32,760 bases of DNA from positions 1 to 32,760 of IMG/VR virus record IMGVR_UViG_3300030380_002060; one strand, given 5' to 3'. Below the pieces are notes generated by a model, which saw nothing but the letters and a program-made list of their open reading frames with translations, ran no database searches and had not been told where the DNA came from. This DNA is from a virus. Positions 28,289 to 32,760 of the stretch are shown piece by piece; positions within the stretch are counted from its first letter, which is position 1; each line of letters opens with the position of its first letter. Both the position numbers and the translations under genes were made by a program.

Positions 28289-28498
28289 ATGACACTAAGC
28301 GAATATTTGAAGACAAACAAGATCAGTCAGGCTCGATTCGCAAGGCGGTGTGGGATTACTCGTTCTGCCGTTTGTCACTTCATAGCTGGCAGACGCTACC
28401 CAAGCCCGGAAATCATGCGTAGGATTTTGTTGGCAACAAATGGTGAGGTAAAACCAAATGACTTTTTTGAACAGACAATGCTATCGGTGCAGCGGTAA
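28289..28498 (+). CDS. Cro-like helix-turn-helix regulator
   Basis: 69 residues. Helix-turn-helix at about 13-34: ISQARFARRCGITRSAVCHF, then IAGRRYPSPEIMRRILLATNGEVKPNDFF. The RRYPSPEIxxRIxxATxGxVxxxDF pattern is the Cro/C1-type end of the domain, giving a DNA-binding-only protein of Cro length. It reads divergently from the recombination operon across the shared -35 site, the classical place for autoregulation. RBS AAGAGG. The 3' end overlaps the next gene by 41 bases. Confidence 0.78.
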   Translation: MTLSEYLKTNKISQARFARRCGITRSAVCHFIAGRRYPSPEIMRRILLATNGEVKPNDFFEQTMLSVQR

Positions 28499-29709: not shown

Positions 29710-29754
29710 ATTTGTAAATAAAAAAAAGCATAGCCAAGTGTAAAGGCTATGCTT
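29710..29754 (-). terminator. Strong - strand terminator of the antirestriction operon
   Basis: Ten-bp perfect stem AAGCATAGCC (29726-29735) with GGCTATGCTT (29745-29754) and a nine-base loop. Read on the - strand it is followed by TTTTTTTATTTAC. It lies 23 bases past the stop of the gene at 29778-29987. The stem pairs perfectly and the U-tract is long, the best intrinsic terminator in the window. Confidence 0.85.
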
Positions 29755-29777: not shown

Positions 29778-29987
29778 CTAGTTTTTCAATCTCAAACACT
29801 CGACACAGTTGCCATTGCGAACAAGTCTATTGGCTACATGTCCATTGCTACACTCATTGCCTGTAAAGAAATGCGGCAAGCCATTGAGTCGTGCCGTCTC
29901 TCTTGTGATGCGTCTGTTGCCATAGTCATCATGGCTAACTAGGCGCAAAGCCTTTCTCAATTCAGTATATGTTGGCACGTTATCCAT
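29778..29987 (-). CDS. Small zinc-binding protein
   Basis: 69 residues. LPHFFTGNECSNGHVANRLVRNGNCVECLRL is a recurrent phage motif: Cys and His at CxxxH, then CxxC near the C-terminus, a small zinc finger also found as an appendix of HNH enzymes, though no HNH catalytic His pair is present. Its ribosome site (GAGAGGGAG) lies inside the last codons of the XRE gene. Its TAG stop falls in a copy of the CTAGCAA repeat. Role unknown. Confidence 0.65.
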   Translation of the reverse strand: MDNVPTYTELRKALRLVSHDDYGNRRITRETARLNGLPHFFTGNECSNGHVANRLVRNGNCVECLRLKN

Positions 29988-29991
29988 TGGC

Positions 29992-30333
29992 TCAACTCCC
30001 TCTCTGTTTTATAAATTCTTTGCAAGTAAGCATGACTATATGTGCATAGTCTTTTTGATTGCTAAATTGTTTTATATCTAAGGTTGATATAATTTCTGCA
30101 AACTCTGTAAGCAGATCAACAAGCCAATCTAAATCATTATTTATTTCTGCCTCTCTTTCTATACGCTCTCTCTCTTTTGAGCAGTTGTGCAGCTTGGTAA
30201 CAGTATCCGGCACATGCGTTACGCCAGTCTCATAATTGATAATGGTGCGTCTTGTGACGCCTAGCCTCTCTGCCATCTTTTGCTGGCTGATGCCTAACTG
30301 CAACCTTTCGGTCTTGATTTTTTGTGCATCCAT
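29992..30333 (-). CDS. XRE-type helix-turn-helix regulator
   Basis: 113 residues. HTH at about 14-37: ISQQKMAERLGVTRRTIINYETG, followed by THVPDTVTKLHNC, a typical XRE domain. The C-terminal half is a Glu/Leu-rich helix pair (RERIEREAEINNDLDWLVDLLTEFAEIISTLD), probably for dimerisation. It has a triple GGAAGG upstream and a TTGCTAGTT leader copy at 30356. It could regulate the divergent operon at 28.2 kb or the ardC operon; targets are not identifiable from sequence. Confidence 0.75.
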   Translation of the reverse strand: MDAQKIKTERLQLGISQQKMAERLGVTRRTIINYETGVTHVPDTVTKLHNCSKERERIEREAEINNDLDWLVDLLTEFAEIISTLDIKQFSNQKDYAHIVMLTCKEFIKQRGS

Positions 30334-30370
30334 GATATTTTCCTTCCTTCCTTCTTTGCTAGTTGGATGT

Positions 30371-30407
30371 GAGAGGCCGCTTTAGCGCAATGCTTTGGCG
30401 GCTTCTC
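30371..30407 (+). other. Terminator-like hairpin oriented + inside a - strand region
   Basis: GAGAGGCCGC pairs with GCGGCTTCTC (one G-U) and is followed on the + strand by TTTTGCCC. No + strand gene precedes it nearby. On the - strand no U-tract follows. The stem resembles the terminator at 5779-5804 in sequence (GAGAGG stem, TTCTCTT tail). It may stop antisense transcription or be a processed leader of the XRE gene. Confidence 0.4.
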
Positions 30408-30422
30408 TTTTGCCCTCTCTCT

Positions 30423-30605
30423 TTATGATACTGGCTCAATGTGAACCACTCTGATTTCATGCGGCGTAAAATCCTGCATGTATTCCCGGCACCATTCTGC
30501 TTGTTCTTTTGTCCAAAATGTTTCGCCGCCCATAACCCAACGCTTTTTTGTGGGGTTGAATGTTTGCAATGCGAAGCAGTCTGTATCATATTTGCTTTCA
30601 ACCAT
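30423..30605 (-). CDS. Small hypothetical protein
   Basis: 60 residues with GAGGG eight bases before the ATG. MVESKYDTDCFALQTFNPTKKRWVMGGETFWTKEQAEWCREYMQ, then a beta end VRVVHIEPV. Small mixed fold, no known domain. I prefer this frame over an 80-residue alternative in the same place because of the ribosome site and the folded look of the sequence. Function unknown. Confidence 0.55.
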   Translation of the reverse strand: MVESKYDTDCFALQTFNPTKKRWVMGGETFWTKEQAEWCREYMQDFTPHEIRVVHIEPVS

Positions 30606-30623
30606 TTTGTTGCCCTCTCTCTT

Positions 30624-30869
30624 TTACTGGTTAAGTTGAAAATGATTCTGGTCTAGTGATATTGTCATCACACACCCACGAGCATCACGAAGCCCAACTT
30701 CAAAGATAAACTCGCCGTTTCTCTGCAAATCATCGTCCAAGCTTGCACAACGATTTATTTCTGACGCTATGCCATTAGCCCATAGATCAAAAACCCGTGG
30801 GTTATATTCTTGATTTTCATCAATCCATTTTTGAATGTGATAGATGCCTTCTTGATTTACTGTATACAT
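30624..30869 (-). CDS. Small hypothetical protein
   Basis: 81 residues behind AGAGAGG (about eight bases). MYTVNQEGIYHIQKWIDENQEYNPRVFDLWANGIASEINRCASLDDD looks like a short helical domain, followed by strands (FIFEVGLRDARGCVMTISLD). No motif recognised. The same AAAGAGAGAGG leader type is shared with the gene at 30423. Part of the - small-gene operon. Confidence 0.6.
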   Translation of the reverse strand: MYTVNQEGIYHIQKWIDENQEYNPRVFDLWANGIASEINRCASLDDDLQRNGEFIFEVGLRDARGCVMTISLDQNHFQLNQ

Positions 30870-30886
30870 TGCTTTTTCCTCTCTCT

Positions 30887-31048
30887 TTATCTATTGACCT
30901 TGCCAGTGCCTTTGCATGTCTCGCATTTATACGGCCCTAGACTACTGCCAGTTGATAGATTGATTTTATATTCGCCTTTGCCCATGCAACCGTAACAAGT
31001 CTTTTTGTTGCGGTCTGGCTTTCTGGTGTGAACTGGTGCTGAAATCAT
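30887..31048 (-). CDS. 53-residue zinc-finger micro-protein
   Basis: MISAPVHTRKPDRNKKTCYG then CMGKGEYKI and CETCKGTGKVNR. The pair of CxxCxGxG units at about residues 18-25 and 42-49 repeats the DnaJ-type zinc motif of the protein at 28458. The ribosome site AAAGGG lies before ATG 31048. Probable zinc-binding, function unknown. Confidence 0.65.
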   Translation of the reverse strand: MISAPVHTRKPDRNKKTCYGCMGKGEYKINLSTGSSLGPYKCETCKGTGKVNR

Positions 31049-31110
31049 TTTTCGCCCTTTCTCTTCTAGCTAGTTGTGTAATTGCCAGCGATTTAAGCGT
31101 CACTGACTGG

Positions 31111-31149
31111 CTTTGTCATGTCCGGGCTAGGTATCCAGCCCGAACAAAG
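31111..31149 (-). other. Two-part RNA hairpin in the 31049-31170 gap
   Basis: Outer stem CTTTGT/ACAAAG (31111-31116 with 31144-31149) and inner stem CGGGCT/AGCCCG (31123-31128 with 31137-31142) joined by an asymmetric internal loop. It lies within a 122-base gap with no gene. No U-tract follows on either strand. It could be an mRNA leader element of the zinc micro-protein gene. Confidence 0.45.
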
Positions 31150-31170
31150 TTAAACGGCTTGCACGGCTTT

Positions 31171-31338
31171 CTATGGCGTAACAGCAAAGAAAACAGTTAT
31201 GCACCACCACAAGCCAAGCATCATCGCATAAGCACCGATAACCATGCCTATAAGCTTGGCAACTATTCGCGCCACGTTGTAATGACGTCTAGTTGCTTTG
31301 CTGGCTTGGTCAATGTGCAGCTTCAAATATTTATTCAT
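31171..31338 (-). CDS. 55-residue membrane protein
   Basis: TAATG overlap with the gene upstream. A basic, amphipathic first half (MNKYLKLHIDQASKATRRHY) precedes a long hydrophobic segment at about 24-53 (ARIVAKLIGMVIGAYAMMLG, then LWWCITVFFAV). One, possibly two, membrane passes. Function unknown; superinfection exclusion or an early host-takeover membrane peptide would fit, but is speculation. Confidence 0.6.
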   Translation of the reverse strand: MNKYLKLHIDQASKATRRHYNVARIVAKLIGMVIGAYAMMLGLWWCITVFFAVTP

Positions 31339-31559
31339 TAGACTATTTCCTGTATTGCTTGTTTAACCCCGGTGCGATTAAAGATTGCGCCATCTGGCGT
31401 TTTATCGCCTTGCCATTGTGCAACAAGTATTTTCAAGCCCCGCACATATCCAAAACGTTTCACTGTGTCTCTTGCTATGTTGTAAAGGTATTGATCGTTA
31501 TTGATCCACAATGAAACATTCCATGCATTCCAACTTGTATAACCGTTATATCTTGCCAT
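31338..31559 (-). CDS. Small conserved phage protein (YNGYTSWNAWN family)
   Basis: 73 residues behind AGAGGAA. The N-terminal YNGYTSWNAWNVSLWINNDQYLY is the landmark of a family found in phages and some bacteria near antirestriction genes; the rest is a helical domain. It lies between the ardC-like gene and the membrane peptide, preceded by three hairpins. Molecular function is unknown to me. Confidence 0.65.
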   Translation of the reverse strand: MARYNGYTSWNAWNVSLWINNDQYLYNIARDTVKRFGYVRGLKILVAQWQGDKTPDGAIFNRTGVKQAIQEIV

Positions 31560-31652: not shown

Positions 31653-32546
31653 CTATTCAGCCGCTACCGCTAGGCTATCGGTTGCCAAGATATAATCAGC
31701 CGCTTTTTGCGCTTGACCAAAAGCTTTGATCATGGCGCGTTTATCTTGCTTCAAAACTTCAAGCCAGTTGTTTAGGTATTTGGCATGGTCTGGAGTCGGT
31801 TGCTTTTCAAGCCCTAGCATAGCACAAAGAAAAGCCGCGCCAGTCTCTGCGATCAACTCCTCAAAAGCATAGGCATTGCTACCAAAACGGCTGATTAGTT
31901 TACGATCAAGCCGCGACTGGTGGCCTGTCCAATGCGTCAATTCATGCATCATGGTTGAATAGTAGCTTTGCTCTGGCGTGCTATCTTTTGTACCCTTAAA
32001 CGCGCTTTTCTCTGGCATCTGGATAAAATCCGGTTGCGGCGCATAAAATGCCCGGTTGCCACCATGCTTGATATCAGCTCCAGTAGACGCAATAAGCTTT
32101 TCCGCGTCATGGTGGTTCAAAACAATTTCTGGCTGTTCATCAACAGGCTTTGAAACGTAACCGTCAACTTGATCAGCATTGAAAACGCAAAAGCCTTTCA
32201 ACAATGGCACCATTGACTGTTCATCTGTTTCTTTGTCGGTGATCATTACCTTGTCAAAAAACAAAATATCAGTCCCTTTTGAACCTTTACGCACCTTGGC
32301 ACCAAGCTTTTCCCATTGCTTAAATGTTGCCCATTGGTTGCTTTTGAAGCCGTGCCGATATGCTGAAATAGCAGTCATAAAGGTATTTGTCCCTTGATAG
32401 GCTTTTTTAGATACTACGTTGTGGTGACAGTTTCCGGCTTGCTCTTGCCAGCCTTTTGTCCAATCAGCCCCGTATTTTTCCATCTGTTCTGTGACAATAT
32501 CTGTAACCATCTGGTAACGATCTTTTTTTGTAAATGTTTTAGTCAT
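31653..32546 (-). CDS. ArdC-like antirestriction protein (ssDNA-binding plus zincin domain)
   Basis: 297 residues behind AGAGGAA. Residues 1-130 match the ArdC N-terminal ssDNA-binding domain: VTEQMEKYGADWTKGWQ, AYQGTNTFM, NQWATFKQWEKLGAKVRKGSKGTDILFFD and LLKGFCVFNADQ. The C-terminal half is the polyvalent-protein metallopeptidase: HELTHWTGH at 201-209 (HExxH zinc site), then FEELIAE with the third ligand Glu near 230. ArdC proteins protect incoming DNA from type I restriction and bind ssDNA. Same position early in the operon fits an immediate-early role. Family call is strong; protease activity is not shown. Confidence 0.88.
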   Translation of the reverse strand: MTKTFTKKDRYQMVTDIVTEQMEKYGADWTKGWQEQAGNCHHNVVSKKAYQGTNTFMTAISAYRHGFKSNQWATFKQWEKLGAKVRKGSKGTDILFFDKVMITDKETDEQSMVPLLKGFCVFNADQVDGYVSKPVDEQPEIVLNHHDAEKLIASTGADIKHGGNRAFYAPQPDFIQMPEKSAFKGTKDSTPEQSYYSTMMHELTHWTGHQSRLDRKLISRFGSNAYAFEELIAETGAAFLCAMLGLEKQPTPDHAKYLNNWLEVLKQDKRAMIKAFGQAQKAADYILATDSLAVAAE

Positions 32547-32566: not shown

Positions 32567-32581
32567 GATAACCTTTACCTA

Positions 32582-32596
32582 GTGCAAGATTTGCAC
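32582..32596. promoter_or_regulatory. Operator-like inverted repeat, ardC-proximal copy
   Basis: GTGCAAGATTTGCAC, a perfect 6-bp inverted repeat with three-base spacer (GTGCAA/TTGCAC). On the - strand it lies directly downstream of TTGACT (32602-32597), a possible -35. It would therefore occupy the spacer of that candidate ardC promoter, although no good -10 follows (TAGGTA). A likely repressor target. Confidence 0.5.
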
Positions 32597-32665
32597 ATAG
32601 TCAATACCACAATACAAACTTTTTTAATTTATTTTATTTAAGCTTCTAATCCAGCCTATATATAT

Positions 32666-32680
32666 GTGCAGTCTTTGCAC
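32666..32680. promoter_or_regulatory. Operator-like inverted repeat, distal copy
   Basis: GTGCAGTCTTTGCAC matches the 32582 site at 12 of 15 positions, with GTGCA/TGCAC arms. The two centres are 84 bp apart. On the - strand it sits 11 bases after TTGACA (32697-32692). An AT-rich stretch (TATATATA, AATTTATTTTATTTAA) separates the two sites. Confidence 0.45.
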
Positions 32681-32760
32681 CGTTTACTGTCAACGTGCGG
32701 CATGTTATTAGTAAAGAGTATACAGGCAAAGCATTGTTGGCTTGGCTTCGCTGTTTGTTG

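Follow-up and report, generated by a model that had tools for sequence, protein, structure and literature searches.

Two 15-bp inverted repeats upstream of the anti-restriction gene ardC, here called OL and OR, are most probably the cognate operators of the phage's own XRE-type repressor, encoded at 29992-30333. We put the probability at about 0.86 that this repressor autoregulates the leftward promoter PL and that each site independently serves one promoter. We read the protein as an autorepressor of the Cro/Aca kind, acting on an early operon in which ardC comes first. The analysis covered the window, meaning the whole 32,760-nucleotide stretch of viral DNA, together with viral contigs that carry the pair at the same place and have related terminase, ArdC or HTH genes. 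It is the joint change of the recognition helix and both sites across these relatives that, at the level of sequence, identifies the switch. The features are collected in Table 1.

Table 1. Features of the putative operator region, the regulator and the leftward operon in the window.
Feature	Position	Strand	Basis
OL, GTGCAA-N3-TTGCAC, GTGCAAGATTTGCAC	32582..32596	.	Inside 17-bp spacer of leftward promoter PL; kept in position and class-specific in relatives
OR, second operator, GTGCAGTCTTTGCAC	32666..32680	.	Adjoins -10 of putative rightward promoter PR
-35 of PL, TTGACT	32599..32604	-	TTGAC kept in the relatives scored
-10 of PL, TAGGTA (2/6, weak)	32576..32581	-	TATATT in GGCAA-class relatives
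Putative -35 of PR, TTTAAG (weak)	32637..32642	+	Homology to TTTACA-17/18-TATAAT in L325, L330
Putative -10 of PR, TATATG	32661..32666	+	TATAAT in L325, L326, L330
Regulator gene, 113-aa XRE/434-type HTH, putative autorepressor	29992..30333	-	Pfam HTH_3, AF2, 434 profile; helix tracks class
Recognition helix, residues 28-36 (RRTIINYET)	30226..30252	-	AF2 helix; class-separating R28, I32, T36
ardC, first gene of leftward operon; anti-restriction ArdC N-domain and zincin	31653..32546	-	Pfam ArdcN 2.9e-27, MPTase-PolyVal 1.5e-49
Remainder of leftward operon, a mosaic of small early genes with the regulator near its end	29778..31559	-	
Intrinsic terminator, AGCATAGCC-loop-GGCTATGCT-T run	29719..29753	-	Read directly after operon

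The Operator Pair in the Window

Genes for the small and large terminase subunits lie beyond the end of the window on the + strand, and ardC lies on the - strand; OL and OR therefore occupy the divergent region between them. Ten N follow the window end directly (L003 1262-1271, record position 32761-32770), so that the record is joined across a gap that separates the operator region from the terminase genes.

An earlier note had described two 15-bp inverted repeats around an AT-rich stretch, and both the repeats and the stretch between them were confirmed. The start-to-start distance is 84 bp, 12 of the 15 letters match, and 6 of 7 base pairs are symmetric in one 15-mer and 5 of 7 in the other. 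The TTGAC(A/T) claimed to precede each site on the - strand is also present, with OL 2 bp past TTGACT and OR 7 bp past TTGACA, but as a -35 the copy before OR is not conserved: relatives carry GTATACAG or GTAGACGG in its place, and no -10 is suitably placed for it.

Judged on the single sequence alone, the pair is only suggestive. OL and OR are the sole GTGCA-N4-TTGCAC sites within the 34,178-bp record. Dinucleotide shuffling of the 214-bp intergenic stretch gave an equally good pair 9 times in 5000, but when the pair could lie anywhere in the whole window it arose in 25 of 60 shuffles. Since shuffles of one sequence leave chance open, the relatives had to decide, and it is conservation there that makes the pair solid. 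A scan of the collection for pairs of GTGCAN5TGCAC sites separated by 55-85 bp returned at least 120 stretches, which we read as coding repeats because their spacings step mostly by 3; the scan was thus uninformative.

Operator Classes in Related Phages

The half-sites fall into classes: GTGCAA in the window, and GGCAA/GGAAA or ATGCAY in other phages. GTGCAA half-sites, sometimes with one mismatch, occur at both sites in five distinct phages (the window, L312, L314, L005 and L320). Half-sites of the GGCAA, GGAAA or GGTAA type occupy both sites in others, for example CGGCAAGTATTGCCT and CGGCAAACTTTACCT in L325, and ATGCAY-like half-sites do so in L331, L333 and L335. OL and OR are of the same class in every phage where both were found. 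A full OR occurs in the close group and in the class whose regulator has L28, and there it matches OL in class; in distant relatives OL and the regulator are kept and a full OR is absent. The proposal of paired operators was thus borne out by the conservation of the pair and its joint class switching.

On a tree of the terminase small subunit, which has few strongly supported branches, phages of the GTGCAA and GGCAA classes intermingle, with four changes over all three classes; the classes are therefore not simply clade markers. The three classes were defined after inspection of the data, and the GGMAA rule (below) was already visible in the close relatives L208 and L210 before its use on distant ones. 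In the automatic operator table the row for L314 gives OR as OL and that for L331 lacks OR; a pair search and a direct string search gave spacings of 84 and 88 bp, respectively, for these two.

The Regulator and Its Recognition Helix

The protein encoded at 29992-30333 matches Pfam HTH_3 at 38.5 bits (cut-off 23; E 1.2e-9), and its AF2 model has a pLDDT of 91 with helices at residues 3-13, 17-24 and 28-36. It also matches the 434 repressor structures 1r63 and 1per (E 6e-8 to 8e-8), without gaps, from profile 5-52 to chain 5-52. Domain, helices and match together mark it as a DNA-binding protein of the XRE/HTH_3, 434 type. Among the first 60 columns of the regulator, 24 vary among phages of the GTGCAA and GGCAA classes and exactly three separate the two classes: column 28 (R vs. 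A or G), column 32 (I vs. R) and column 36 (T vs. S). All three lie on the recognition helix, as judged from the AF2 helix and the shared register with the 434 repressor, and three separating columns placed at random among the 24 would be exactly these with a chance of 1 in 2024.

A rule based on residue 32 extends this to the third class. I goes with GTGCAA, R with GGMAA, and G or Q (together with L28) with ATGCAY, in 32 of 32 loci, many of them fragments and several near-copies of one another, when each locus is assigned the operator class with the fewest mismatches. The rule holds also for proteins only 28-46% identical to that of the window. In L320 and L325, whose operator classes differ, DNA identity of the repressor genes is 95.9% outside the helix and falls to 70.4% within it. 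This natural swap pair, two near-identical repressors with different helices and operators, offers a simple test of the recognition code.

The window encodes two HTH proteins, and the earlier note had suggested that one of them might be the regulator. From this tracking of operator class, the XRE protein at 29992-30333 very probably is that regulator. The other, at 28289-28498, was rejected: none of its columns separates the GTGCAA from the GGCAA class, and a phage of the GGCAA class carries a copy 99% identical to that of the window. This second protein is an HTH_3 member annotated by phrog as a transcriptional repressor; its two allele groups do not follow operator class, and the divergent intergenic region of its gene has a conserved GTCAAC element.

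Some other factor might bind the sites instead, such as a LuxR/TraR-type protein from the host or a phage or, if they mark a packaging site, the small subunit of the terminase. The GTGCA arms resemble those of the tra box, ATGTGCAGATCTGCACAT, and the sites do lie upstream of the terminase genes. The arms here are, however, separated by N5 rather than the N4 of the 18-bp tra box palindrome, and site class follows the XRE helix at every one of the loci scored, which argues against both candidates, as does the interleaving of the classes on the tree of the terminase small subunit. We regard binding by any such factor as extremely unlikely.

Spacing of the Two Sites

The distance of 84 bp, eight turns of the helix, had been taken as the geometry of a looping repressor, in which dimers at OL and OR would be in contact with the intervening stretch looped out and the sites in helical phase. 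Most close relatives do have 82-84 bp, and L325 has 73 bp (6.95 turns). The 82-84 bp values are not independent, however, as the sequences behind them are closely related, and elsewhere the phase drifts: the distance is 88 bp (8.38 turns at 10.5 bp per turn) in L331 and L333, 107 bp (10.19 turns) in L335 and 268 bp (25.5 turns) in L320. In addition, OL and the repressor persist in the distant relatives that lack a full OR, and the regulator can be as short as 57 aa, the forms of 57-66 aa having little beyond the DNA-binding domain. The conservation in relatives that the earlier note had called for was thus found for OL, and neither the full OR in distant relatives nor the helical phase was kept; looping is very unlikely. 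In L320 and L211 about 184 bp of extra sequence lies between OL and OR, with both operators intact. More simply, 84 bp would be the distance between two back-to-back promoters with one operator each, which explains the spacing without looping.

The Promoters PL and PR

The TTGAC(A/T) and the -10 of PL stand about 17 bp apart, and OL takes up this spacer, its center falling 10-13 nt after the -35; this holds at all loci of the operator table except L314, whose row has OR in the place of OL. PR is near consensus in L325, L326 and L330 (TTTACA or TTTGCA, a spacer of 17-18 bp, and TATAAT; 10-11 of 12 letters), where OR adjoins its -10, and is weak in the window. A generic promoter scan called neither the -10 of PL (TAGGTA, 2/6) nor PR (7/12) in the window. 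A conserved element of the form GTNNACRGTAAAY on the - strand adjoins OR in the window (32681-32694) and in relatives (GTTGACAGTAAAC, GTATACAGTAAAC, GTAGACGGTAAAC).

A TTTACT lies 2 bp past OR, followed at 17 bp by TATTAG or TATAAA (read directly). These boxes could form a second rightward promoter, TTTACT-N17-TATTAG, in which case OR might serve to activate it from upstream and not to repress PR; the conserved element beside OR would fit such a role. We consider this improbable, since in L325, L326 and L330 a better promoter, with 10-11 of 12 consensus letters and a TATAAT -10, runs right up to OR. On the preferred reading, OR is a repressor site at PR.

The Leftward Operon and the Phage

From PL, the - strand carries ardC, several small genes, the regulator, one further small gene and the terminator, the last of which was absent from a terminator scan whose loop limit was 8. 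In the 17 loci whose gene order was drawn up, the regulator stands at or close to the end of a mosaic operon of small genes, which probably share one transcript. Pfam searches of 10 operon proteins found GP88 and Kyano_Gp96, with no known Acr among the matches. GP88-family proteins are also encoded in the leftward operon of some relatives without ardC there (L320 4446-5210, L346 4487-5200). The motif ACTAGCAA occurs six times in the window, all on the - strand (27112, 28197, 29775, 30356, 31575 and 32558), against 1.7 expected on both strands together. Several copies lie just ahead of gene starts in the leftward operons, where the motif might act as a leader or mark a boundary at which mosaic genes are exchanged.

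The phage is probably a lytic relative of the HTVC010P pelagiphages. Its TerL is about 51-54% identical to those of HTVC010P-type phages, the gene order matches HTVC010P, and both groups have a leftward module beside the terminase genes. They differ in the switch itself: a search of HTVC010P for the operator pair found no equivalent, and no phage record, that of HTVC010P among them, showed a homologue of the repressor. A leftward-operon protein of L325 (4051-4470) resembles HTVC010P gp64 by eye, a likeness that would, if it holds, connect the leftward module of one group with that of the other.

The lifestyle bears on whether the protein might be a CI-like lysogeny repressor that keeps PL and PR off in the prophage of a temperate phage. 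The XRE fold, divergent promoters with one operator each, and specificity classes reminiscent of immunity would all suit such a repressor. Against it, no phage integrase (PF00589) was found in eight near-full records (controls positive in 14 of 14), and a scan of genome contigs for hosts and prophages yielded no prophage, only one short, weak fragment. In addition, the repressor gene comes at the end of the very operon that would be under its control, and no convincing promoter of its own was found. The integrase and prophage results favor a lytic phage, which in turn makes a Cro/Aca-like role likelier; a CI-like one is quite unlikely.

A Model for the Switch

We propose that PL fires on entry of the phage and transcribes the early operon, ardC first and the repressor gene near the end. 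As repressor accumulates, a dimer would bind OL in the -35/-10 spacer and shut PL off in negative autoregulation; the position of OL inside the core promoter implies repression by a block to RNA polymerase. A second dimer would bind OR over the start of the divergent PR, which points at the terminase genes, and each site would control its own promoter independently of the other. The likely outcome is an early burst and then shut-off, because the regulator is carried by the very transcript it would block. The sequences support the two sites and the way they switch class, the tracking protein with its recognition helix, and the place of its gene in the operon; dimer binding, repression rather than activation, the timing and a function for PR are what we infer in addition.

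No description of early control in the HTVC010P-related group was found in the literature, leaving aside the main HTVC010P-type paper. The present reading would provide, for the early genes of this group, a regulator, its operators and a readable code of protein-DNA recognition. The operators also mark the start of the mosaic early operon, and hence a place to look for further anti-defense genes.

Comparison with Known Systems

The closest parallel is with anti-CRISPR-associated (Aca) autorepressors such as Aca10 and Aca2, which bind inverted repeats inside the core promoter, for which a block to RNA polymerase has been proposed (PMC9410881, PMC9410906). As in those systems, an early operon of small, swappable genes has the gene for a small HTH protein at its end, and an inverted repeat, sometimes with a second one, lies in the core promoter (PMC9410881, PMC9410906). 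The regulator here is encoded downstream of other genes in the operon it would control (17 loci, the shared transcript being presumed), and OL lies between the -35 and -10 of PL. Foldseek matched Aca10 (7xi5, rmsd 0.8 over 52 columns) and Aca2, with weak E-values, the best of all matches being 0.013. Pfam identified no acr gene among the 10 operon proteins. Unlike in Aca systems, the lead gene is ardC, or another small gene in other phages, and the second site belongs to a divergent promoter.

With CI and Cro of phage 434, the regulator shares the HTH fold and its register, as well as operators that serve divergent promoters. It differs from them in that the repressor gene is not between the operators and there is one operator per promoter, not three; neither a CI partner with opposite control at this region nor an integrase was found.

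In the immunity groups of lambdoid phages and of cluster A mycobacteriophages, repressor and operator specificity likewise change together within a phage family. Here no integrase was found, and otherwise near-identical repressors differ between classes only in the recognition helix. One speculative possibility, to which we give rather low odds, is that in a strictly lytic HTVC010P-like group the autorepressor of an anti-defense operon acts as a superinfection barrier, a resident phage silencing the early operon of a newcomer of the same class. Such a barrier would favor rare specificity classes, so that selection would repeatedly have swapped the helix together with both operators. If this is true, these swaps are the natural counterpart of laboratory helix-swap experiments.
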